Assembly: GCA_903895195.1 (NCBI GenBank)
Contig: CAITSZ010000005.1
Location: forward strand, 124,001 to 188,000
Source of the DNA: an uncultured Chlorobiaceae bacterium
GTDB taxonomy: Bacteria > Bacteroidota > Chlorobiia > Chlorobiales > Chlorobiaceae
Length of the DNA: 64,000 bases
Reading direction: 5' to 3'
Numbering within the stretch: the first letter of the stretch is position 1; each line of letters starts with the position of its first letter. The notes beneath the pieces were generated by a model. The model saw nothing but the letters and a program-made list of their open reading frames with translations. It had not been told where the DNA came from and ran no database searches. Of the stretch, positions 17,169-30,210 are shown piece by piece. The translations under genes and the position numbers were made by a program.

Positions 17169-18146
17169 TTAAATGGTTACAAATTTTTCGTACATCTTCC
17201 AGGTCGAAGAGATGAGGGTATCTACATCGCTGTATTTCGGCACCCATCCAAGCAGCTCCCTTGCCTTTGCCGATGAGGCAACCAGTTCGGAAGGATCTCC
17301 TGCACGCCTTCCTGAAATATCAGCAGGAACTTCCCTGCCGGTGATTGCCCGGGCTCGGTCAACCATTTCAAAAACACTGACACCTGTCTGACTTCCAAGA
17401 TTCACCGTCAGGCTTCTGTCATGCTGCAGAAGGTATTCAAAAGCAGTGACATGGGCTTCGGCAAGATCGCTGACATGAACATAGTCACGGATGCAGCTTC
17501 CATCACGTGTGGGATAATCATCGCCGAATATGGAGAGTTTCGGGCGAATTCCTGCGGCTGCTTCCATCACAATCGGGAGAAGATTCTCAGGATTCAGTTC
17601 AAGACCCTTGATGCGTCCTCTCACATCATAGCCCGCAGCGTTAAAATAGCGGATTGCGGCATACCGCATCCCTTTGAGACGATCATACCAGTCGAGTATG
17701 CGTTCTATTTCAAGCTTGGTAAAGCCGTAAAAGTTTTCGGGCTCTTTCGGGTGATTCTCATCAATCGGAAGGTATTGAGGACTGCCATACACTGCAGCTG
17801 AAGAGGAAAAGATAAGACGTGATATTCCAGCCGCAGTTGCCTGGTTGAGAATATTAATGGTGCCGGAAATATTGGATTCAGCATAGAGTTCCGGTTTAAG
17901 CATGGACTGACCCGCAGCTTTAAGGGCGGCAAGGTGAACACAGCCATCAAAGCCCTCTCTCATCGCTTCTCTCAGCTGTTCGGGACGCATGATATCGCCA
18001 TACACAAAAGCCGCATCATGAAAGAGATTTTCTCTCAAGCCGGTTTGAAAATTGTCAAACACTGTCACCGCATAGCCTCGATCAAGAAAAGCTCTTGCAA
18101 CATGACTGCCTATATAGCCTGCTCCACCAATCACAAGAATCCGCAT
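17169..18146 (-). CDS. galE: UDP-glucose 4-epimerase
   Basis: A 325-residue extended SDR enzyme interconverting UDP-glucose and UDP-galactose. The NAD-binding GGAGYIGSHVARAF is at the N-terminus; FSSSAAVYG supplies the catalytic Ser and YGFTKLEIE the Tyr-xxx-Lys pair. RYFNAAGYD, CIRDYVHVSDLA and VNLGSQTG are GalE signatures. It lies between rfbB (44 bases upstream) and manC, consistent with supply of galactose for envelope polysaccharide. Specificity for UDP-GlcNAc cannot be excluded from sequence. Confidence 0.92.
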   Translation of the reverse strand: MRILVIGGAGYIGSHVARAFLDRGYAVTVFDNFQTGLRENLFHDAAFVYGDIMRPEQLREAMREGFDGCVHLAALKAAGQSMLKPELYAESNISGTINILNQATAAGISRLIFSSSAAVYGSPQYLPIDENHPKEPENFYGFTKLEIERILDWYDRLKGMRYAAIRYFNAAGYDVRGRIKGLELNPENLLPIVMEAAAGIRPKLSIFGDDYPTRDGSCIRDYVHVSDLAEAHVTAFEYLLQHDRSLTVNLGSQTGVSVFEMVDRARAITGREVPADISGRRAGDPSELVASSAKARELLGWVPKYSDVDTLISSTWKMYEKFVTI

Positions 18147-18190
18147 AATAAGTTCCTTTCAGTTCAATAGTTGTATTTCAAGGGCGCTTC

Positions 18191-19240
18191 TCACCTGCTG
18201 CCATACATATCTTCATAATAGTGCTGATAGTCGCCTGAGGTAACATTATCAAGCCACTCTGTGTTTGAAAGATACCAGTCGACTGTCAGTTCAAGCCCTT
18301 TTTCAAACGATATTGACGGAACCCAACCGAGTTCCCGCTGCAGTTTGGATGAATCGATGGCATAACGAAGATCGTGCCCGGCCCTGTCGGTAACATAGGT
18401 CACCAGCTGTTCAGACTCTCCGGCAGCTCGACCAAGCTTTGTATCCATAATCCTACAAAGAAGCCGGATAAGATCGATGTTGCTCCATTCATTGTGGCCG
18501 CCGATATTATAAGTTTCGCCATTGCGACCCTTATGAAAAATGACGTCGATAGCTTGGGCGTGATCAACAACCCAGAGCCAGTCACGAATATTCTCACCCT
18601 TTCCGTACACAGGAAGCGGCTTATTGTGCACGATATTGTTGATAAAAAGAGGAATCAGCTTTTCGGGAAACTGGAATGATCCGTAATTGTTTGAACAGTT
18701 GCTGATCACCACGGGCAGATTAAAGGTATCGTGATAAGCACGGACAAAATGATCGGAAGAGGCCTTTGAGGCTGAATAAGGGCTATGGGGATCGTAAGCA
18801 CTCTCTTCGGTAAAAAGCCCGACGCTGCCCAGCGAACCGTATACCTCATCGGTTGAAATATGGTAAACCCGCTTTCCTTCCATGTCGGACTGCCAGCAGG
18901 CTTTCGCAGCATTGAGCAGATTCACGGTGCCAAGCACATTGGTAACGACAAACTCCGTCGGGTTTGCAATTGAACGATCAACATGCGATTCGGCTGCGAG
19001 GTGAATTACTCCATCAAAGCGAGAGTCCTGAAACAGGGTCAGCAGAAAATCACCATCGGTTATATCCCCTTTAACAAACCGGTAGTTCGGCAGCGTGTCG
19101 ACATCCTTGAGATTTGCAAGATTGCCTGCATAGGTGAGGCTGTCGAGATTGGTTATTGTGTATGACGGGTAGCTCTGTAAAAAATGCCTGACGACATGCG
19201 ACCCTATAAAACCGGCTCCCCCGGTAATGAGAATATGCAT
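18191..19240 (-). CDS. rfbB: dTDP-glucose 4,6-dehydratase
   Basis: A 349-residue SDR dehydratase, the second step of dTDP-L-rhamnose synthesis. The NAD-binding loop is GGAGFIGSHVVRHF; HLAAESHVDRSI, STDEVYGSLG (catalytic Thr/Asp/Glu) and YSASKASSDHFVRAY are family-specific. NCSNNYG and GKGENIRDWLWV follow. It lies in the rhamnose gene run, 58 bases after rfbD on the same strand. Confidence 0.96.
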   Translation of the reverse strand: MHILITGGAGFIGSHVVRHFLQSYPSYTITNLDSLTYAGNLANLKDVDTLPNYRFVKGDITDGDFLLTLFQDSRFDGVIHLAAESHVDRSIANPTEFVVTNVLGTVNLLNAAKACWQSDMEGKRVYHISTDEVYGSLGSVGLFTEESAYDPHSPYSASKASSDHFVRAYHDTFNLPVVISNCSNNYGSFQFPEKLIPLFINNIVHNKPLPVYGKGENIRDWLWVVDHAQAIDVIFHKGRNGETYNIGGHNEWSNIDLIRLLCRIMDTKLGRAAGESEQLVTYVTDRAGHDLRYAIDSSKLQRELGWVPSISFEKGLELTVDWYLSNTEWLDNVTSGDYQHYYEDMYGSR

Positions 19241-19298
19241 TGGTTGTTAGAATTATGTATTGGTTGACTTTGCTTATCACCTCTCCTTCAGCACTTTG

Positions 19299-20162
19299 TT
19301 ATTGTTGAATCTTTTGAAGTAAACATGACAGTGAAGCACGCCAGTTTGGAATTTCAACCCCCCACTCTTGCTTGATGGCTGACTTGTTAAGAACGCTGAA
19401 TTGAGGCCGTGGAGCAATTTGGGGATAGTTGACGCTTTCTACCGGAAGCACCTTGCAGGGGAGGCCGGAAATTTCCATAATCGCTGCAGCAAAATCATAC
19501 CACGAGGCGACTCCCTCATTGGAGTAGTGATAGCTCTCTTTATAGTGCCTTGCAAGATCAGAGGTATCAAGTATGGAAACAATTGCTGCAGCAAGATCGG
19601 TAGCATAGGTCGGTGTGCCTATCTGGTCGACTACAACGTTCAGTGTTTCACGTTCAGCGCCAAGTCGAAGCATGGTTTTAACAAAGTTGGCACCGTAGGC
19701 TGAGTAGAGCCATGATGTTCTGATAATCAAGTATGAGGGGTCGATCTGACGAATCAGCTCCTCGCCCTCCCATTTTGACTTCCCGTAAACGGTTCGTGGA
19801 GAGGCTGGATCGTTTTCCCGATATGGGGTCCAGGACTCTCCATTAAAGACATAGTCGGTGGAAATATGGATCAGAAGGGCATTGTGTTCTTTCGCACATT
19901 CTGCCAGCACAGCCGAACCATCCCTGTTGACACGGTATGCAGTGTCGGCATCAGATTCAGCTTTATCTACGGCGGTATATGCCGCACAATTGACAATCGC
20001 GTTTATCCGGTGTTCCCTGCACAAACGATCGACGTGATCATGACTGGTTATATCAAGGTCAGGAAGATCGTAGAAAAAAAACTGCTGACTGCCGCTTTTG
20101 GTCGACAACTCCTGCAACTCAGACCCCAGTTGACCTTTACTGCCGGTAACAAGAATATTCAT
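19299..20162 (-). CDS. rfbD: dTDP-4-dehydrorhamnose reductase
   Basis: A 287-residue NADPH-dependent SDR, the final step to dTDP-L-rhamnose. VTGSKGQLGSEL is the nucleotide-binding loop; NCAAYTAVDKAE, STDYVFNG and YGKSKWEGE, with the Tyr-xxx-Lys pair, identify the family. ADLAAAIVSIL and YHYSNEG follow in the substrate domain. It sits between rfbC and rfbB on the minus strand. Confidence 0.95.
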   Translation of the reverse strand: MNILVTGSKGQLGSELQELSTKSGSQQFFFYDLPDLDITSHDHVDRLCREHRINAIVNCAAYTAVDKAESDADTAYRVNRDGSAVLAECAKEHNALLIHISTDYVFNGESWTPYRENDPASPRTVYGKSKWEGEELIRQIDPSYLIIRTSWLYSAYGANFVKTMLRLGAERETLNVVVDQIGTPTYATDLAAAIVSILDTSDLARHYKESYHYSNEGVASWYDFAAAIMEISGLPCKVLPVESVNYPQIAPRPQFSVLNKSAIKQEWGVEIPNWRASLSCLLQKIQQ

Positions 20163-20200
20163 GAGAAATAAAGAAAATTATGAGGTCACCAATTCGTCAA

Positions 20201-20806
20201 CTATGGGGTACAAAGCTTTGAAATCCCCGGATAGAGCTTTTCCTGCCGGTAATCATCGTAGGGAAAGCTCTCTATGAGTCCGAAGCAGGGCTGAACTGCA
20301 TCTTTACCGGAAACCCGGATATCCTTTTCAGGAACCTGCCATTCTATAGCCAACGCAGGATCATTCCATAACATACCTGCATCGTATGAAGGCATATAGT
20401 AGTTATCGCACTTGTATGCAAAAACAGCCTCTTTGGATAGAACAAGAAAGCCGTGTGCAAACCCTTTAGGAACCCAAAGCATATTCTTCCGATCAGCATC
20501 GAGGATGCATGTCACATGGCGACCGTACCATGGTGAACCGAGACGAATGTCAACAGCTACATCAAGAACACTTCCATAAACCACCCGCACAAGCTTGGAC
20601 TGCGTAAAAGGCGGCTTTTGAAAATGAAGACCTCGAAGCACCCCGTAACCTGACTTGGACTCATTATCCTGAACAAACGATATATGGCCGACATGCTGCT
20701 CAAAAAGATCCTGGCGGAACGATTCAAAAAAATAGCCTCGATCATCCCCGAACACTTTCGGTTCAAAAACAAGAACATCAGGAATGGCTGTTGTAATCAC
20801 TTGCAT
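20201..20806 (-). CDS. rfbC: dTDP-4-dehydrorhamnose 3,5-epimerase
   Basis: A 201-residue cupin-fold epimerase, third step of dTDP-rhamnose synthesis. VFGDDRGYFFESF, the catalytic-His-containing RGLHFQKPPFTQSKLVRV, and KGFAHGFLVLS are family marks. The ATG at 20806 (MQVITTAIPDVL) is chosen; an upstream GTG at 20842 overlaps the end of rfbA and adds unrelated residues. The gene starts 32 bases after the rfbA stop, consistent with one transcript. Confidence 0.95.
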   Translation of the reverse strand: MQVITTAIPDVLVFEPKVFGDDRGYFFESFRQDLFEQHVGHISFVQDNESKSGYGVLRGLHFQKPPFTQSKLVRVVYGSVLDVAVDIRLGSPWYGRHVTCILDADRKNMLWVPKGFAHGFLVLSKEAVFAYKCDNYYMPSYDAGMLWNDPALAIEWQVPEKDIRVSGKDAVQPCFGLIESFPYDDYRQEKLYPGISKLCTP

Positions 20807-20838
20807 AAGAACCGCACAATAACTGTTGTTAAAAAAAC

Positions 20839-21717
20839 TCACCTCTGTTCATGCAGTCTTAAGAGATACTGACCGTATTGGTTTTTCATCATTGGTTTCG
20901 ATAACAGTAAAAGGTCTTCATCAGTGATCCAGCCGTTTCGCCATGCAATTTCTTCAGGACAGGCAATTTTAAGCCCCTGCCTTTTTTCGACCGTTTGTAT
21001 AAAGCTTCCTGCTTCCTGGAAAGACTCATGGGTTCCGGTATCAAGCCAGGCGAAACCCCGGCCAAGAATTGAGCACTTCAACTGGCCCCGAAGCAGATAC
21101 TCCTCGTTGACGGCTGTAATTTCAAGCTCACCGCGCGGGGAAGGCTTGATTTTTTTTGCAATCTCAATGACACTGTTCGGATAAAAATAAAGCCCGACTA
21201 CAGCGTAATTTGATTTGGGAGACGGCGGCTTTTCAACAATTGAAAGCACGTTACCGTCTGAATCGAACTCTGCTACTCCATAACGCTCAGGATCACTGAC
21301 ATAATAACCGAATATATTGGCTTTGCGCTCTTTCTGTACCGTCTGAACCGAAGCCTCAAGCATTTGAGTAAACGCATAACCGAAAAAAATGTTGTCACCG
21401 AGAATGAGCGTGACGTCATCACTGCCAATAAATGCTTCACCAAGAATGAATGCCTGGGCAAGCCCGTCAGGAGAAGGTTGAACGGTGTAAGAGAGAGAGA
21501 TGCCCCAGTCGCTGCCGTCTCCGAGCAGCTTTATGAACATCGGCTGGTCTTCAGGTGTCGTTATAATGAGAATATCCCTAATCCCGGCAAGCATCAGCGT
21601 GGTCAGGGGATAATAAATCATAGGCTTATCATATACCGGCAGGAGCTGTTTTGATATCCCCCTTGTAACAGGATAGAGTCGAGTACCGGACCCGCCTGCA
21701 AGAATAATGCCTTTCAT
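20839..21717 (-). CDS. rfbA: Glucose-1-phosphate thymidylyltransferase
   Basis: A 292-residue nucleotidyltransferase making dTDP-glucose, the first step to dTDP-rhamnose. The signature [20 protein letters not shown] is at the N-terminus, then [25 protein letters not shown] holds the metal-binding Asp, and [18 protein letters not shown] and [12 protein letters not shown] follow. It is the first gene of the sugar run; the HEPN gene ends 18 bases upstream on the same strand. Confidence 0.96.
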
Positions 21718-22263: not shown

Positions 22264-22773
22264 TTACCACCCTGATACAAGCCGATCAAAAATCTCCTCA
22301 TTAATCTGCCCAAGGGAAACAACTATTGCCTGCTGTTGTGCAACATAATTACCGGCATAATAATCAGCAAATCCAACAAACGATTGTGTAAATAACGGGA
22401 TTTTTTTCACACGATCGGTCATCGTAACATGGACGACAAGTGTAATCCGATTGGTAATCGCGCGTTCTGTTTTACTGGAAAGCTGACCAGGTAGATCAGA
22501 AAAGGATGTGATCGTCCCTTCCAGCAGAGCATCGGCACTTGCCATGGACGGGGTAAAGCGAAGTGAGCTTTGTGACTCTATTTTGTCAACCAGCGCCTTT
22601 GTTGATTGAGCTCTTAACTGGGCAATACCTGCACCGGAACGGTCATCAAAAACGGGAATTGCAATGGTTTTGAGGTGAGCTGGTATCGATGCCCCGGTGA
22701 AGCTGTAACAGCCCTGAAGGAATACCGCAACAAGACAAAAAAGTATGACTCCGGCAGCTCCGGCTTTCAGCAT
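22264..22773 (-). CDS. lptE: LPS-assembly lipoprotein LptE-like
   Basis: A 169-residue predicted lipoprotein: the hydrophobic N-terminus ends in the lipobox LQGC with Cys22 as the lipidated residue. The segment CYSFTGASIPAHLKTIAIP, then FDDRSG and ITSFSD, is typical of the LptE family in Bacteroidetes/Chlorobi, which plugs the LptD outer-membrane channel for LPS export. lptD is not in the window. It is fourteen bases after the SDR gene on the same strand and is the end of the RuBisCO-like protein cluster by spacing. Confidence 0.8.
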   Translation of the reverse strand: MLKAGAAGVILFCLVAVFLQGCYSFTGASIPAHLKTIAIPVFDDRSGAGIAQLRAQSTKALVDKIESQSSLRFTPSMASADALLEGTITSFSDLPGQLSSKTERAITNRITLVVHVTMTDRVKKIPLFTQSFVGFADYYAGNYVAQQQAIVVSLGQINEEIFDRLVSGW

Positions 22774-22787
22774 GACAGTCCTTTGGA

Positions 22788-23612
22788 TTAGTAGGTTCGA
22801 CGGTCAATCCTGCTCAGTATTTTACGGAAGGGATAGGTCAAGAGCAACATTTTTTTTCTTCTGCCATTCAAAGCAGAAAGATAGACCCCGGTTTTCAAGT
22901 CACTCCACCGGGAAGCCAACTTTACGGCAAGCTGAGCTGCAACGAGAGGCGACTGTGCAAATATATCAAGGATGGTATTGAAGGTCGCCAGCTGTCGGGA
23001 AAGTTCTGGAGTTGGATTTTCAGCGCTGACCATGCCGGTTCGAACCAGACCGGGATGCAAAAGCATGACAGATATCCCAGTATGCCGATACTCTGCAGCA
23101 ACGGCATAGGTAAACCGGGCAATGGCAGCCTTTGTTGAGCCATAAGCGCTTATCCAGGGAGTATTTGATTTCCTGTCCGTACCGGAACCGGCCATATTAA
23201 TGATTTTTCCTTTACGATTTTCTTTGAGAAAGTAGTTGATAGCAGCCCGACACCCGTTATATGTTCCTTTAAGGTTTGTATCGATTACTTTTCCCCATGC
23301 ATCAGGATCGCTTTCAGTAATATTCCGAAAAGTATCGGATATCCCCGCATTGTTGATAAATACATCTATTCTGCCGAACTTTTTGACCGTGTCCACAATA
23401 AGTTGTTCCATATCGACAGTGGAGACAACATTACAGACACAGCCGTAGACTGAGTCAGGAGGGAATTCCAATAGTGCCGCCTGAACATTGGCATTCGAAG
23501 AAGAGGTTATGACCACCCTGGCTCCTTCCCTGACAAACTCATGGGCTATTGCTTTACCGATCCCTTTGGTGGACCCGGTAATGATGGCAACTTTATCTTC
23601 GAGTACACCCAT
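22788..23612 (-). CDS. Short-chain dehydrogenase/reductase next to the RuBisCO-like protein
   Basis: A 274-residue classical SDR. The NAD(P)-binding TGSTKGIGKAIAHEF is near residue 13, NNAG near residue 87, and the catalytic Ser (AGSG) and YGSTKAA pair follow. The substrate is unknown. The C-terminus (GRRKKMLLLTYPFRKIL) is basic and hydrophobic, which may suggest membrane contact. It follows the RuBisCO-like gene by 15 bases on the same strand, so the two are probably co-transcribed, and its substrate may be related to that protein. Confidence 0.85.
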   Translation of the reverse strand: MGVLEDKVAIITGSTKGIGKAIAHEFVREGARVVITSSSNANVQAALLEFPPDSVYGCVCNVVSTVDMEQLIVDTVKKFGRIDVFINNAGISDTFRNITESDPDAWGKVIDTNLKGTYNGCRAAINYFLKENRKGKIINMAGSGTDRKSNTPWISAYGSTKAAIARFTYAVAAEYRHTGISVMLLHPGLVRTGMVSAENPTPELSRQLATFNTILDIFAQSPLVAAQLAVKLASRWSDLKTGVYLSALNGRRKKMLLLTYPFRKILSRIDRRTY

Positions 23613-23627
23613 ACTCAGTCGTTGTGG

Positions 23628-24944
23628 TTACTTTACCTTCAATTTCGTTTTTCTCTCTGCCCCGTCAACCATTGCCTGAAGTTCAGGCCGTCCGGCTGCA
23701 TAGGTCTCAAGAGATATTCCCTGTTCAATGGCCTCCCATGCCTGACGTATACTCGCCGCACCGGCTTTGGGGCCCATTGGATGGCCAAAAATTCCACGTC
23801 CGGGAACAAAGCCGAAATCAACACTTCCGACATGGCGGTAAACGGTTTCAAGCGTCAACGCCGAATCGCTGCCTCCAGGTACTGGAAGTGAGCGTTTGAT
23901 ATGGCCGAACTCCTGAAGACATTCCTGAATATTCTCCTTCACCTCTTCTTCTGGAGTCATCATTCTTCCGCCAAATCCGGGCATGATAATAGAGTCAAGA
24001 CCGGCAAGCCGCTGCAGCTTAGTCATCACTCTGGAGTGAATACCATATTTTTCCATTCTACTGAAGGCGGCGATAAACGGAAAATGTCCGATAAGAGGAA
24101 CCTTTGTATGTTTCGCCAGCATCCGGACAGCACTCAACCCTACAGGAAGGGCATTGACAAGCAGGGCATTGGCCCCATTACTGACTGCAATATCATGCTG
24201 CTCGATGAGGCGGTCGACCTCATCAGTGACATTAGCAAGATAGACCTTCGGCACACCGGTCACCCGTTCCGCCTTTAATCTCGCATCTCCAAGAGCATGG
24301 GATCTTTCAATAAGACTTGACCAGTCTACATCGGCAAGCATCTCATCGTCTTTAGCTATATCAAGACCACCCAGCCAGCTCTGGTAGGCAATTTCAGCAA
24401 AATGAGCAGGACTGAGACCGATATTCGGCTTTACAACACCGAAAAAAATCGGCCTGTCATAGGCCTGAAGTAGGTCGCGAATACCTTCAATGCCGAATTT
24501 TGGACCATCAAAGGCAAGGAGATAAGACTCCGGAAAGCGGATATCAAGCAGTTTGACCACCGGAACGCCGGGAGTAAAAAAGACGCCCTCTCCACATACT
24601 GCGGAGAGCAGATTCGGCAGTTTCGGACCGAAATTGCGATGAGGATGAGCAATAGTGACTCGGCAGGCATGAATAGCGCCTGATTCTGAATGTCTGACTG
24701 GATAACTGAGCTCCGGCAGTTCGCCCTCAACCGTCAGGCTGATAACTTTTGCACCATATTGCGGGCGAAAGTCTTCATCATAATCAACGCGACTCCACTG
24801 CGCTGTGGATTGCTCGCTGCAAAAATGTGCAAGAGCCGTCTCAATATCACCCACACATTCAAGGTAGTAGTCAAGCGTCAGGTAGTCAGCCATTTCAAGC
24901 TGCTCCCTGGAGGCAAAAAAACCTTTGATATCCTCAGTATTCAT
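23628..24944 (-). CDS. RuBisCO-like protein (form IV)
   Basis: A 438-residue RuBisCO large-chain homologue that does not carry out carboxylation. It keeps K172 in VVKPNIGLS and the metal-site trio K198, D200 and E201 in LDIAKDDE (RuBisCO K175, K201, D203, E204). It lacks the Arg after His287 (HFPF instead of HR) and the loop-6 Lys (MPGFGGRMM). This pattern fits the photosynthetic green-sulfur-bacterial RLPs, linked in C. tepidum to sulfur metabolism and oxidative stress; their reaction is not settled to my knowledge. It lies between an LsrF homologue and an SDR, all on the minus strand. Confidence 0.93.
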
Positions 24945-25023
24945 AAATAAATATCATACCCTCTGGCCATCCGTAAGCTGCATAAGGGTTCCCGTTGAAA
25001 AAAATCAACCTGAAAAATAATGC

Positions 25024-25049
25024 CAGGGCAGGCGAACGCGCCTGCCCTG
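25024..25049 (-). terminator. Strong 11-base-pair hairpin after the LsrF-like gene
   Basis: CAGGGCAGGCG and CGCCTGCCCTG pair around AACG. The minus-strand tail ATTATTTTT follows a few bases later. It separates the LsrF-like gene from the RuBisCO-like gene, so the two may be separate transcripts or partly attenuated. Confidence 0.75.
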
Positions 25050-25071
25050 AAAATCTGAACCCATTTAGGGG

Positions 25072-25953
25072 TTATCCTTCAGCCTTTATGGTATTGAAAT
25101 AGTCGAAAGCATCCTTTGGACTCAACTGCTCATGAACAACCTTATTAACAGCTTTCATCATGGCAAGAGGGCTGTCGCTCTGGAATATATTTCGCCCCAT
25201 ATCGACACCTGAAGCTCCACCCTGGATTGCACTCCATGACATGGTCAACGCTTCGAGTTCAGAGATTTTTTTCCCTCCGGCCATAACAATCGGTACCGGA
25301 CAGGATGCCGTAATGGTTTCAAAATCTTCAGGTACATAGTAGGTTTTAACAATCTGAGCGCCAAGTTCGGCCGCCATCCTGCAGGCAAGCCTGAAGTATT
25401 TGGCATCCCTTACCATATCCTTGCCGACTGCAGTTACTGCCATAGTCGGAATCCCGTAGCGAAGGCCCATATCGACAAGTCGAGTCATGTTGTGAATGGA
25501 TCGGGTCTCATATTCACCGCCGACAAATATCTGGAGGGTTATTGCTGCGACATTCATCCGGATCGCATCCTCGATATCGACTGCAAGTTCCTCATCAGAG
25601 AGCTCCTTGAGAATACTCGGCCCACCGCTGCAACGCATGACAACCGCCCTGGTGAGGCTTGGCGGAACAGTGGTGCGCAGAATACCACGGGTCAGCATTA
25701 TTGCATCAGCATAGGGCATAAGAGGTACAATATTGACATCGGGACGTTCAAGACCTGTAGTCGGACCCTGGAAGTAACCGTGATCAATAGCGAGCATAAC
25801 GGTTTTTCCGGTATCAGGCCGGAATATTCTTGACAGGCGGTTTTTCATTCCCCAGTCGAGAGAGTGGGCCCCTTTGAGGAAAAATCCATAGTTGTTAACC
25901 GGAGTATCAAGATGATACTCTTTCGCCTGCTTGTCTTTATCGTATTCCGCCAT
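25072..25953 (-). CDS. LsrF-like DhnA-family aldolase/thiolase
   Basis: A 293-residue TIM-barrel protein extremely close in pattern to E. coli LsrF, the coenzyme A-dependent thiolase that cleaves 3-hydroxy-5-phosphonooxypentane-2,4-dione in autoinducer-2 breakdown. Shared strings include [56 protein letters not shown] with the Schiff-base Lys, and [11 protein letters not shown]. No other lsr gene is present. Green sulfur bacteria do not have a known autoinducer-2 uptake system, so the substrate may be a different phosphorylated diketone. It lies between the aldolase/SDR fusion and the RuBisCO-like gene. Class I fructose-bisphosphate aldolase is the alternative reading. Confidence 0.85.
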
Positions 25954-26006
25954 GATAATGCATCTCCTCTTTTCGGTTATGATTGTTTGTGGGTTATCTG
26001 TTGAAT

Positions 26007-28124
26007 TTATCGGAGGGCAGCTGCAATATTGCCTCCATCTACCGTTGTAATTGAACCTGTTGTTCTTGTTTCAAGCGCCAGGTGCACGAATGCCTCAGCA
26101 ACGTCTTCAGCGGTAACCTCCAACTGAAGGAGGTTGCCTGCCATGTACTCCTTTTCACTCAGGCCACGGGCCGTTGAGCGGGCTTTAATCATCTCTGCGG
26201 TAAGAAGGCCGCTGCGTATGCGGTCGGCGTTGATGCCGTTTGACCGAATGCCGTCTCGTCCGTGGTCAAGAGCATATTGACGGACAAGAAACAGTGTCGC
26301 CGCTTTAGGCAATCCGTAGGGACCAAAGTCTGGACCGGGATTGACGGCCTGTTTGGAAACGTTGAAAAGCAATACCCCGCCGGTACCCTGCAGTTTCATT
26401 ACCCTCACAGCCTCCTGGGCCATGGACTGGTGCGAAAAGAAGTTGAGCTCAAAGCTTTTGCGGAGCAGTTCATCAGACACTTCGCCGATGCGCCCCTGAA
26501 TTGCGGCTCCCACATTGGAAACAACAATATCCAGACCGCCGAACCGGCGGCAGACAGCATCGAAAGCAGAGCGGACAGCTGCTCGCGAAGTAACGTCACA
26601 AGGAAGAGCAAGAACATTGCCACCGATTTCCGCTGCTGCCCTTTCGAGTGATTCCGCAGAAAGATCAAGAATAACAAGTTCCGCACCTTTCTGACGGAAC
26701 GCTTTGGCAGTTGCAAGACCAATACCGCTGGCCGCTCCGGTTACCATGACAACTTTTCCGGCAAAAACATCATGATGAACCTTGTTCATCTTTGCCTGCT
26801 CCATATCCCAGTACTCTATTTCAAAGGCCTCACGGTCACTGATAGACTCAAATGTACCCAGTGATTCAGCATCCAGAATTCCAGAGGCAGTGCATGTGGC
26901 GATATCAGCATTGACTGCAGCTGAGGCAGCGGTTCTGCCAAGTCCGAAGAGTCCAAGACCCGGAACAAGAACCACTCTGGGCAACGGGTCAAGCATCGTT
27001 ACCTGCATGCCTGAGGCCTGCCGCTGTGCGGTAAAATATTCGATGTATTCCTGGCGGTAGCGCTGCACAGCTTCATGCACAGCACTCTTGAATCCTGAAA
27101 GATTCTCAGCATCAGGAGGAGGAACTACAAGCGGCTTGTTTTTCGTCCGGATTATAAAGTCCGGAGTCATTGCGCCCTTCTGGCTCATACGAACAAGCTC
27201 ACTGCTATTGACATAGTCAAGAATAACATCAGAGGTACGGAAATCGAGAATAAACTGGTGGTACTCTCGCGTGCCTGGAGACTTTTCATCGACACATGCG
27301 CCCCTGATAACAGGAGCAGCGTCTTCAACCGAAGCTATTGATGCTGGAAGCGTTATGGCCGGAACTGTTTTTCTTCCGGCTGAAGCAATCCGTTCTTCAA
27401 GTCTGCTGACGGCATCGATCATTCGTGTGTAGGCCTCTTTGGCGGTAGCACCGAACGTTACCAGACCATGTTTCTGAAGCACCAGGCCATTAATGTCAGG
27501 ATTTGCCTCATAGACAAGAGCTGCCGACCGGGCAAGGCCGATTCCTGGCTTTATATAGGGAACTGAACCAAAACGTTCGCCAAGCGTATCGCTGCAAAGC
27601 TTCTCGCCGTAGGGCTGATTACTTATGGTGAGCAGAGCGAACGAATGCGTATGCAGAATAAAACGGTGTGGAAGAAAAGAGTGAAGAAGTGTTTCAATAG
27701 AAGGAGTAAGCCGCTGCTCGGTCATATGATCAGTGAGGCTGAACATGTTCAGGAGCAGAAGGTATTTAAATTCTTTCGTAGAAAATCGCTGAAGCACTTC
27801 TTCGCTCGCCTTGTCGTTCCGGCTGAAAAGCTCTCCCAGCTTGCGAAGGGGACCAAGCCGCAGCGGCGTATAATCCAGGCAGGTAACGCGACTCAAGTCA
27901 ATTCCACTGGCTTTAATCAAGAGTACTTCAGAGCGGTTGCCAACCACATCGGCCAGTTCGCATTTAACAGAGGTGTTCCCTCCTCCATGCATTACAAGCG
28001 AACTTTCACTTCCAAGCAATCGGGATGCATACACCAGTTCGGCCAATTCAGACGGGATCTCGGGCGAACTGGACAGTTCTTTGACTGAGCGTTGAAGATC
28101 ACTGTCATTCCAGAGGTTCTGCAT
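26007..28124 (-). CDS. Class II aldolase / short-chain dehydrogenase fusion (RhaD-ADH type)
   Basis: A 705-residue two-domain enzyme. Residues 1 to about 430 are a class II aldolase of the rhamnulose-1-phosphate type: [19 protein letters not shown] with the catalytic Glu, HTHSFALL and KHGLVTFG with the zinc histidines. Residues about 460 to 705 are an [25 protein letters not shown], and YGLPKAA with the Tyr-xxx-Lys pair. Family members cleave a ketose-1-phosphate to dihydroxyacetone phosphate plus an aldehyde and oxidise or reduce the aldehyde in the same chain. No rhamnose isomerase or kinase lies in the window, so the substrate is open. It precedes the LsrF-like gene by 53 bases. Confidence 0.9.
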
Positions 28125-28198
28125 AGGAAATCATACTTCTTACACCGCATCATCGGCGTGTATTGTTGAAAAATAAAGACAAGCGAAAAAAATCCTGT

Positions 28199-28420
28199 TC
28201 AGCTGTGACTGTTCTTCTGTTTCTTTTCATGCCAGCCTTCAATAAAAAATCCCGCACTGTAAATAATGAGGAACCCGGGAATAATAGTCCCGAGAAACAT
28301 CATTTTGTCACTGATGGTCTGGAGTTGACCGGAAGACCAGATAATCCAGACAAGCACATACCAGGCTGGCCCTACAAAGAGAAAAGTGTTATTCCAAAGT
28401 CTTTTAAAACTGTATTTCAT
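28199..28420 (-). CDS. Small two-helix membrane protein
   Basis: A 73-residue protein with hydrophobic segments near residues 13-28 and 41-60 and a lysine-rich end (GWHEKKQKN). No family is recognised. It lies 37 bases after bchV on the same strand and 74 bases before the aldolase/SDR gene, so it is probably in the bchV transcript. A role in pigment enzyme anchoring would be speculation. Confidence 0.65.
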   Translation of the reverse strand: MKYSFKRLWNNTFLFVGPAWYVLVWIIWSSGQLQTISDKMMFLGTIIPGFLIIYSAGFFIEGWHEKKQKNSHS

Positions 28421-28457
28421 AGCATTGTAAACGTCTTAACAACGAGAGTGGCTAGGT

Positions 28458-28931
28458 TCAGATTTGACCTTCAATACGAAGTTTACGCTCGTTGAGTTTT
28501 TCAAGAATGATCCGGGTCAGATATTGCAGTGCATTGATCACATAGGTGAAATAGGCCAGAAAAGCTTCCCATACAAGCACATGTTCAGGATAGCCAAGAA
28601 AGACCATGATAAAATAAAGAAGATGGAATACCGCCGCCACAGTACTTCCTATATCTTCCCAGACAAACTCTTTTGAGTAAACCCATTTATCGAAAACCTC
28701 CTTTTCAAAAAACATACCTGTTATGAAAAGAAGAGCAAAAAAGATGGTCTTGAAAAGAATGGCTATGCTGACCCAGTAAAAATTTGTTACGAAAAGGCCA
28801 TTTGCATACAGAGCAGTTGTAGTTACACCGGCAACAAAAAGCAAAAACTGTATCGGCGCAAGAATAATCTGAATGTCAGTCCAGATGGAGGCGTTTCGTT
28901 TAACCAGCTGTTCAGGTGTATAGCGAGGCAT
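28458..28931 (-). CDS. bchV: 3-vinyl bacteriochlorophyllide hydratase (BchF/BchV family)
   Basis: A 157-residue integral membrane enzyme that hydrates the C-3 vinyl group of the chlorin to 1-hydroxyethyl, the group needed for self-assembly of chlorosome bacteriochlorophylls c/d/e. The start [18 protein letters not shown], the [12 protein letters not shown] helix, [21 protein letters not shown] and [11 protein letters not shown] are BchF-type signatures, with about four hydrophobic segments. Green sulfur bacteria have two paralogues, BchF and BchV. I call this BchV because, from memory, the C. tepidum bchV gene (CT1776) lies near the RuBisCO-like gene (CT1772), as here. No other pigment gene flanks it. 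Confidence 0.85.
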
Positions 28932-29109
28932 GTGCTGTTACTCTTAACTGATAGTAAAATATGTTACCAGTGAGATGACGTTACCATCGGCACTGTCATT
29001 ATTAAAGCTTGGAATATAGCAAAATTGAAGAGAAATAGTTCGATGGATAGCTGTGAAAGGGTAACACTACCGGTAGAAATATATCAGGGATACCCTGGAG
29101 AGAACGTGA

Positions 29110-30210
29110 CTATTGGTTCATCTGTGTTTTGCGGAATTCTCCGATAGCATCAGCCGCCAGTATAGCCTGAAGAACTTTTTCAGATGTTATCTGCCCGGAT
29201 TCATTATGGATGCATTCATCCGGGGCACATGCTTTTTCTGCAACTGCCATAAGTTTGCCACGGTCAAAGTGACGCAGACCAATATCAGCAAGGGTGGTTG
29301 GAAGACCTACCTGTTCGCAGAACGAGAATACGATAGTCGATTCTTCGGGTGAAGCATCAGTGAGTTGCAGCCCGGCTAAAAGGCCAAACGCTACTTTTTC
29401 ACCATGATAGAATGCATGTGTTTCTTCCAGCACTGTGAATCCGTTGTGAATGGAATGGGCACTTGCCAAACCTCCGCTTTCGAAACCCACACCGCTTAAG
29501 AGAATATTCGCCTCCACAATATGCTCCAGAGCCGGTGTGATGATCCCCCGCTCTGCGGCAATTCTGGCTGCATTGCCATATTGCAGCAATGTATCATAAC
29601 AGAGTCTGGCAATGTTGAGCCCGGTCAGTGTAGTGAGTCCGCCACACGCGTTTTTAGAGTGTGAGAGGCTGCAGGACTTTGCTTCAAACCATGTCGCCAA
29701 TGCATCACCCATACCTGAAACAAGAAAACGGACGGGAGCCCTAACGATAATTTCCGTATCAACAAGAACAGCTGCGGGATTTGATTTTTGATAATAGACT
29801 GATTCCATCGTACCTAGCTCTGAATACAATACGGCGCATCCGCTGCAGGGAGCATCAGTCGATGCGATCGTTGGCACGATAATGACCGGAATACCGGCAC
29901 GGTCGGCGGCAATTTTTGCAGTATCGATTGTTTTTCCTCCACCCATGCCTGCAAGAACATCCACATCCTGCTCACGTATGACTGAAGCAAGCCTGGAGAG
30001 CTCTTTTTCGCAACACTCTCCCTGAAAGCGCTCGACAGAGAAAGAGTGTGCGTTTAGATCAATGCCGCACTCCGGGAGAATCGTTTTTTGCACTGTAGGC
30101 GAGGCAAGAATAAGCCCACGCTGTCCAAAACGTTTTATGAGGGCGGGCAACTCCTTGAGAGCACCGGCACCTTGAATGTACTTACCCGGAAAAAATGCTG
30201 TTTTCAACAT
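29110..30210 (-). CDS. GldA-like iron/zinc-dependent polyol dehydrogenase
   Basis: A 366-residue member of the iron-containing alcohol dehydrogenase superfamily, closest to glycerol dehydrogenase. FFPGKYIQGAGAL opens the chain. The NAD site shows GMGGGKTIDTAK and VPTIASTDAPCS. The metal site is formed by the Asp in SGMGDALATWFEA and the His residues in LASAHSIHNGF and HAFYHGEKVAFG. Family reactions include glycerol to dihydroxyacetone and reduction of small hydroxy-aldehydes. It is the most upstream gene of the cluster, 178 bases before bchV, and could supply or consume the DHAP-side or aldehyde products of the aldolase. The substrate is not known. Confidence 0.87.
   Translation of the reverse strand: MLKTAFFPGKYIQGAGALKELPALIKRFGQRGLILASPTVQKTILPECGIDLNAHSFSVERFQGECCEKELSRLASVIREQDVDVLAGMGGGKTIDTAKIAADRAGIPVIIVPTIASTDAPCSGCAVLYSELGTMESVYYQKSNPAAVLVDTEIIVRAPVRFLVSGMGDALATWFEAKSCSLSHSKNACGGLTTLTGLNIARLCYDTLLQYGNAARIAAERGIITPALEHIVEANILLSGVGFESGGLASAHSIHNGFTVLEETHAFYHGEKVAFGLLAGLQLTDASPEESTIVFSFCEQVGLPTTLADIGLRHFDRGKLMAVAEKACAPDECIHNESGQITSEKVLQAILAADAIGEFRKTQMNQ

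Follow-up and report, generated by a model that had tools for sequence, protein, structure and literature searches.

A conserved AldSDR–LsrF–RuBisCO-like protein gene row in the Chlorobiaceae and its possible role in ketose-1-phosphate salvage

In Escherichia coli, LsrG isomerises phospho-4,5-dihydroxy-2,3-pentanedione (phospho-DPD), supplying the substrate of LsrF. Other systems with related enzymes are the RhaEW-type fusions, which we take to unite a rhamnulose-1-phosphate aldolase with a lactaldehyde dehydrogenase; the disposal of 5-deoxyribose by DrdK, DrdI and DrdA; the dihydroxyacetone phosphate (DHAP) shunt, which runs through MtnP (or MtnN and MtnK), MtnA and Ald2; and the methylthioadenosine (MTA)–isoprenoid shunt of Rhodospirillum rubrum, with its RuBisCO-like protein (RLP) of the DeepYkr group and a cupin. 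LsrF itself is described as splitting its dione phosphate into DHAP and acetyl-CoA (PMC8016206). Here we analyse a 64,000-nucleotide stretch from an uncultured Chlorobiaceae bacterium (assembly GCA_903895195.1, contig CAITSZ010000005.1, positions 124,001 to 188,000), hereafter the window, in which a class II aldolase domain fused to a short-chain dehydrogenase/reductase (SDR), together called AldSDR, an LsrF homologue and an RLP are encoded side by side.

The LsrF of the window resembles its E. coli counterpart closely: the two are 61% identical, Asp57, His58 and Lys203, presumably the catalytic residues, are retained, and the equivalog model NF006081 is passed (509 bits, cut-off 297). Nevertheless, E. 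coli LsrF is more distant from it than are relatives with Planctomycete titles (up to 80% identity, among the best 80 of at least 585), no LuxS is present, and its partner is a dehydrogenase, not the LsrG isomerase. With 5-deoxyribose disposal and the DHAP shunt the system shares MtnA, a class II aldolase domain and the expected DHAP; it differs in that there is no MtnP-grade enzyme, the aldolase is fused to an SDR, LsrF is added and mtnA is unclustered. Common to the R. rubrum shunt is an RLP with a 5-substituted ribulose-1-phosphate as its presumed substrate, but this RLP groups with the Protein Data Bank (PDB) chains 1ykw and 2qyg, the type of Chlorobaculum tepidum RLP and Rhodopseudomonas palustris RLP2, and the latter is reported to lie outside that path. 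Finally, AldSDR has the domain order and family (PRK08324 group) of the RhaEW-type fusions, but it scores below the TIGR02632 cut-off, and its linkage is with LsrF and RLP instead of genes for rhamnose catabolism.

Conservation of the gene row

The row lies on the minus strand and is transcribed in the order AldSDR (26007–28124, 705 residues; NF006193, 1363 bits, cut-off 1213), LsrF, a class I aldolase/thiolase family protein (25072–25953, 293 residues), the form IV RLP (23628–24944), a second SDR 3' of it (22788–23612) and lptE, encoding an LptE-like lipoprotein (22264–22773). The intergenic gaps are 53, 127, 15 and 14 bp, respectively. Of the 98 class genomes searched, 82 have RLP, 79 LsrF and 78 AldSDR, absence of the latter two being called at thresholds of 1e-10 and 1e-40. 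We fetched 20 stretches for closer comparison, 15 of them Chlorobiaceae RLP loci picked by hand across both genera, and the ordered row AldSDR–LsrF–RLP–SDR–lptE was present at all 15. In addition, matches to LsrF, the SDR and lptE lay no more than 1.5 kb from RLP at 30 of the 30 best-scoring RLP loci; this set consists of near relatives and overlaps the former (three genomes are common to both), and order and gaps were computed for its 20 plus-orientation loci only. Because the row was ordered in 15/15 loci and the matches were there in 30/30, its clustering goes beyond chance. The initial annotation, which had listed these families side by side, was borne out for the row itself: the profile scores exceed the cut-offs, the LsrF is a close homologue with its presumed catalytic residues kept, and the RLP is identified by its PDB matches. 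The function of lptE, a conserved neighbour, is probably unrelated to that of the genes beside it.

Exceptions were few within the family. Genome G050 (99% complete, 40 contigs) has no RLP, LsrF or AldSDR, perhaps by loss or by an assembly gap, and a few further Chlorobiaceae drafts are without one or more of the three, several matches being cut by contig ends. At the locus of Chlorobium ferrooxidans DSM 13031 the RLP frame after LsrF is in two pieces, with LsrF and AldSDR intact; the same split occurs in genome G024, as a frameshift or a draft error.

LsrF and its dehydrogenase partner in other phyla

The two proteins at the head of the row keep the residues to which we assign catalysis. In the 40 aligned AldSDR sequences, Glu144, His158, His160 and His219 of the aldolase part and Ser590, Tyr603 and Lys607 of the SDR part are invariant, and these are presumably the active-site residues. 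The NCBIfam name of LsrF is 3-hydroxy-2,4-dione phosphate (3-hydroxy-2,4-pentanedione-5-phosphate) thiolase. By our own chemical reasoning, this substrate would be structurally identical to 4-dehydro-5-deoxypentulose-1-phosphate, that is, 5-deoxyribulose-1-phosphate oxidised at C4.

A contig scan with four LsrF queries gave at least 585 confirmed relatives, of which the best 80 were used, 21 from green sulfur bacteria and 59 from elsewhere. The latter are 66–80% identical, and their titles name Planctomycetota, Verrucomicrobia, Acidobacteria and delta-proteobacterial groups, among others; two of the 59 loci, L145 and L156, come from one genome. For these 59 we counted the neighbours that lie up to 3.5 kb from LsrF and share its strand. 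It was found that 49 have a dehydrogenase, either an AldSDR-type SDR (39 loci) or a zinc dehydrogenase (10 loci), and that the two never occur together; the probability of this lack of overlap is about 3e-6 if loci are taken as independent, which they are not. A class II aldolase domain was near LsrF at 21 loci and an Rpe-like 3-epimerase at 25. On the opposite strand near LsrF an SDR was seen at one locus and an aldolase domain at one, while the farther flanks on both strands (341 kb, as against 362 kb near LsrF) held an SDR at two loci and no zinc dehydrogenase, aldolase or epimerase. The zinc dehydrogenase of locus L161, the one such protein scanned, matched L-threonine 3-dehydrogenase best, followed by scyllo-inosose 3-dehydrogenase and galactitol-1-phosphate 5-dehydrogenase, all below cut-off and all models of enzymes that oxidise secondary alcohols. 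Partly by eye, we also noted rhamnulokinase-like genes, PfkB kinases, E1/E2 dehydrogenase-complex genes, class II aldolases of the fructose-bisphosphate type and a D-lyxose isomerase-family gene. In the Verrucomicrobial LsrF operon L145, a uroporphyrinogen-decarboxylase-family protein (PF01208) is encoded between the Rpe-like gene and AldSDR (L145:9654–10739).

The dehydrogenase is the most constant partner of LsrF and the aldolase is optional. Since, in addition, oxidation at C4 would give an LsrF-type substrate, the core of the module is probably oxidation of a ketose-1-phosphate followed by cleavage with coenzyme A (CoA), the simplest function common to these loci. Among the papers searched, no title or abstract opening described the LsrF–dehydrogenase pairing; earlier work on the RLP may already have remarked on its gene neighbourhood in the Chlorobi (Tabita 2007; Hanson and Tabita 2001).

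The NF006081 score of LsrF would also suit the processing of autoinducer-2 as in enteric bacteria. We rejected this candidate: LuxS was found in none of 31 genomes, including the present one, whereas the same search was positive in 5 of 14 control genomes, and no lsr gene besides LsrF was seen at the locus. Such a role is therefore highly improbable here.

A different substrate is suggested by the likeness of AldSDR to RhaD-type fusions. AldSDR and LsrF could serve the turnover of 6-deoxyhexoses of the rhamnose or fucose type, with rhamnulose-1-phosphate or its 4-dehydro form split into DHAP plus either lactaldehyde or lactoyl-CoA. The rhamnulokinase-like genes found close to LsrF at loci of other phyla (L156 and L163, both below cut-off) fit this, as do the dTDP-rhamnose genes that follow the row in genus g1, where some or all of the galE and rfb genes adjoin lptE at 8 of 10 loci. 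However, they do so at none of the five genus g2 loci; AldSDR meets NF006193, a model of the generic fusion, but reaches 447 bits against the TIGR02632 cut-off of 567.75 for the RhaD aldolase/SDR fusion; and no kinase, sugar isomerase or transporter was seen at the RLP locus, to which that search was confined. We regard 6-deoxyhexose turnover as an unlikely function of the pair.

The RuBisCO-like protein and a candidate sugar

The best PDB matches of the RLP were chains 1tel/1ykw, with about 770 bits over 429 residues, followed by 2qyg with 671 bits and the next chain with 174 bits. Judged by these scores, the RLP belongs to the C. tepidum type (IV-Photo), being closest, among proteins of solved structure, to C. 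tepidum RLP and R. palustris RLP2. In RuBisCO numbering, as we apply it, the protein retains Lys198, Asp200 and Glu201 (the metal/carbamate motif) and the equivalent of Lys175, while the equivalents of Lys177, Lys334 (Arg here), Asn123 and Ser379 are substituted; the kept Lys-x-Asp-Glu motif and the loss of the loop-6 lysine are presumably features of IV-Photo proteins. This pattern supports the form IV assignment already made in the initial annotation, and it is as expected of an enolising, non-carboxylating enzyme. The scores with MtnW models were well below their cut-offs (TIGR03332, 150 against 513.6 bits; PRK09549, 197 against 409 bits).

The C. tepidum RLP was reportedly recognised about 2001 and has had no reaction assigned to it since; its mutant is said to have a pigment phenotype. 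In titles and abstract openings we found none assigning a reaction to this type of RLP. R. palustris RLP2 is reported to convert methylthioribulose-1-phosphate slightly in vitro and to have a negligible role, if any, in the use of MTA, and the same 2018 paper asks for experimental work to establish what the RLP2/C. tepidum type does (PMC5893883).

Outside the Chlorobiales, an RLP lay within 8 kb of LsrF at one of the 59 loci, L156 of an Opitutaceae genome. This operon (L156:886–9075) comprises genes for an RLP, a rhamnulokinase-like protein, a TIM-barrel isomerase-like protein, E2, E1 alpha and beta, LsrF and the start of an Rpe gene; the RLP, the kinase and E1 alpha were scored by models, the remaining genes identified by eye or by BLAST. 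Its RLP is of a different type (29% identical), with MtnW as the nearest model, below its cut-off. Matches to PF00016 were found in 9 of 50 genomes searched, that of L156 among them, and among 120 genomes drawn from the family the only RLP of the L156 type was that of the L156 genome itself. The operon possibly represents an undescribed sugar pathway that uses an RLP. The idea that an RLP takes the place of the Rpe-like epimerase near LsrF was not supported, as L156 has both. Thus, among the loci examined, the link between RLP and LsrF is strong inside the Chlorobiaceae and rare outside.

As to the source of the sugar, the genome has a bona fide mtnA (TIGR00512, 382 bits, cut-off 279), about 100 kb from the row on the same contig. 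It lies directly 3' of a gene for a phosphorylase of the purine nucleoside phosphorylase (PNP) type, and a cbb3-type oxidase subunit gene comes next downstream (region C5:45357–47252). Among the 98 genomes, PF01008, the MtnA-type family, occurs in 93 and PF01048, the phosphorylase family, in 95; by eye, the two genes are adjacent in many (G022 and G001, for example) and kilobases apart in G036, G040, G048 and G086. Because mtnA is present here and PF01008 in 93/98, 5-deoxy- or 5-methylthio-ribulose-1-phosphate is plausibly made in this genome. The phosphorylase beside mtnA is of the inosine/guanosine type (TIGR01700, 320 against 293 bits); it has Asp at what we take to be the position of Asn243 of human PNP, a difference that may favour adenine nucleosides. 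HemN, BchQ and BchR are radical S-adenosylmethionine (SAM) enzymes in bacteriochlorophyll synthesis. BchE and BciD are described as further enzymes of this kind (PMC5972617), and because the pathway uses several of them, the load of 5'-deoxyadenosine in green sulfur bacteria should be high. This compound is reported to be toxic, to inhibit radical-SAM enzymes and to be salvaged via 5-deoxyribulose-1-phosphate in Bacillus thuringiensis (PMC6079011); disposal through the same sugar is reported elsewhere, together with an MtnA-type enzyme that takes both the deoxy and the methylthio sugar (PMC8102628).

Our best explanation, offered tentatively, is that AldSDR and LsrF oxidise and cleave a ketose-1-phosphate, likely 5-deoxyribulose-1-phosphate from 5'-deoxyadenosine, and that the RLP acts on the same kind of sugar. 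MtnA would make 5-deoxyribulose-1-phosphate from 5'-deoxyadenosine released at the radical-SAM steps of (bacterio)chlorophyll synthesis, the SDR domain of AldSDR would oxidise its C4 hydroxyl to give a 2,4-diketose-1-phosphate, and LsrF would cleave the latter with CoA to DHAP and an acyl-CoA, which is acetyl-CoA in the case of the deoxy sugar. Alternatively, the aldolase domain could split the sugar by retro-aldol cleavage, yielding DHAP together with an aldehyde. The RLP would abstract the C3 proton from the same kind of ketose-1-phosphate, as an isomerase or epimerase. The gene conservation, the pairing of LsrF with a dehydrogenase, mtnA, the intact motifs and the missing LuxS in 31 genomes are observed; from them we infer the substrate, the products, the order of reactions and the place of the RLP. 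A fuller version, in which this oxidative, CoA-yielding salvage by MtnA, AldSDR and LsrF is joined by an RLP that isomerises part of the sugar to 1-deoxyxylulose-5-phosphate for the isoprenoid tail of the pigment, seems improbable to us.

Several observations weigh against this proposal. No MtnP-grade phosphorylase was found (TIGR01694, 75 against 275 bits), the PNP-type enzyme being the sole PF01048 protein of the genome (a kinase was not sought), nor was an adenosine-type or 5'-deoxyadenosine deaminase, the only PF01979 protein being, by eye, a dihydroorotase. Families f3 and f4 have PF01008 and bchF, yet RLP, LsrF and AldSDR are absent from all ten of their genomes; bacteriochlorophyll synthesis therefore does not require the module. 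The radical-SAM gene bciD is without an intact AldSDR–LsrF pair in six of the eight genomes that have it. Elsewhere the module sits amid sugar kinases, epimerases and isomerases, which points to sugar catabolism. As for the pairing, 10 of the 59 loci have neither dehydrogenase nearby, nine of the ten zinc-dehydrogenase loci bear delta-proteobacterial-type titles and may be one lineage, and the pattern was spotted and counted on identical loci. Finally, in family f2, outside the Chlorobiaceae, G086 (a single contig of 3,293,456 bases, 99% complete) has the RLP and neither LsrF nor AldSDR, while G087 has AldSDR–LsrF and the RLP on separate contigs.

The two f2 genomes also favour the view that the RLP is merely a genomic neighbour, AldSDR and LsrF having a separate job and the RLP acting elsewhere, with its stress or sulfur phenotype arising by another route. 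In both, the SDR does not adjoin the RLP, which instead lies beside a gene of about 1,200 codons (loci L052 and L054; alpha-amylase-type by eye). The single RLP–LsrF locus among the 59 outside the Chlorobiales and the reported dispensability of R. palustris RLP2 for MTA use (PMC5893883) point the same way. Against it stand the adjacency of LsrF and RLP at every locus of the two overlapping Chlorobiaceae sets and the independent RLP–LsrF operon of the Opitutaceae genome. We think this view doubtful, though a serious contender.

The initial annotation had proposed sugar-phosphate salvage tied to sulfur metabolism. Its chemical class, salvage of a ketose-1-phosphate, agrees with our proposal. Its methylthio version, in which methylthioribulose-1-phosphate from MTA is the substrate, did not fare as well. 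In its favour are the presence of mtnA, the ability of an MtnA-type enzyme to accept both sugars (PMC8102628) and class II aldolases reported to split methylthioribulose-1-phosphate in the DHAP shunt (PMC5893883); opposed to these are the phosphorylase of PNP type where MtnP was anticipated, an RLP below MtnW grade and the negligible part, if any, of RLP2 in MTA use (PMC5893883). We judge this version to have little chance of being right. The families of the row are linked in the Chlorobiaceae; the suggestion of one pathway for all of them was too confident for the RLP, which is separable in G086 and G087, and for gldA (see below).

The copy beside bciD and the flanking genes

The row is preceded on the minus strand by the gldA-like dehydrogenase gene (29110–30210; NF006941, 468 bits, cut-off 336) and by bchV, encoding a 157-residue 3-vinyl hydratase of the BchF family (28458–28931; TIGR02020, 201 bits, cut-off 101), a name that we assign from the bchF tree. 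The gaps are 178 bp between gldA and bchV and 333 bp between bchV and AldSDR; the latter contains no minus-strand open reading frame of at least 80 residues. Seven items had been listed on this strand; the common strand stands, and we count six genes, BchV itself being the small membrane protein. It was found that bchV is 5' of AldSDR at 13 of the 15 Chlorobiaceae loci and is thus a frequent, non-constant neighbour. In contrast to its earlier inclusion in the cluster, gldA was near the RLP locus at none of the 15 and at one of the 21 named green sulfur loci, the near relative L116, and it is therefore a lineage-specific neighbour outside the conserved unit. On the other side, galE and rfbABCD-like (dTDP-rhamnose) genes, named by eye, lie just 3' of lptE (window positions 17169–21717).

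A second AldSDR–LsrF pair occurs at a pigment locus. The gene bciD was found in 8 of the 98 genomes, and in two of them, G026 and G048, an intact pair follows it directly. In G078 and G085 the neighbour of bciD is an AldSDR remnant, joined in G078 by a remnant of LsrF; at 1e-4, no AldSDR or LsrF was detected beside bciD in G001, G029, G064 and G003 (the G003 contig measures 3.9 kb). No bciD was found in G047, which has an LsrF end at a contig edge before cruB. Since the pair has decayed in two genomes and is missing from others, AldSDR–LsrF is not essential beside bciD. Published passages on the bacteriochlorophyll e cluster name cruB, bchF2/bchF3 and bciD, with no mention there of the aldolase pair (PMC3613366, PMC6639628).

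In the AldSDR tree, the copy beside bciD joins the primary G041 copy with a support of 1.0, i.e. within the genus, and bchF3 lies outside the bchV clade of the bchF tree, which was rooted at its midpoint and printed without support values. Going by these trees, the bciD-side copy looks young, bchF3 resembles an ancient sister of bchV, and the copy was therefore probably recruited separately to the radical-SAM site. The positions of both disfavour the idea that the copy arose along with the duplication behind bchV and bchF3.

The pairing of LsrF with a dehydrogenase across phyla suggests that the LsrF annotation covers many ketose-1-phosphate thiolases which act after a dehydrogenase and are not quorum-signal enzymes. 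Together with the gene row, it narrows the problem of the RLP to a short list of substrates for tests with purified enzymes. If the fuller version, with its isomerising RLP, were true, the C. tepidum-type RLP would gain a function, and the stress phenotype of its mutant, as well as the reported pigment phenotype, would be explained.

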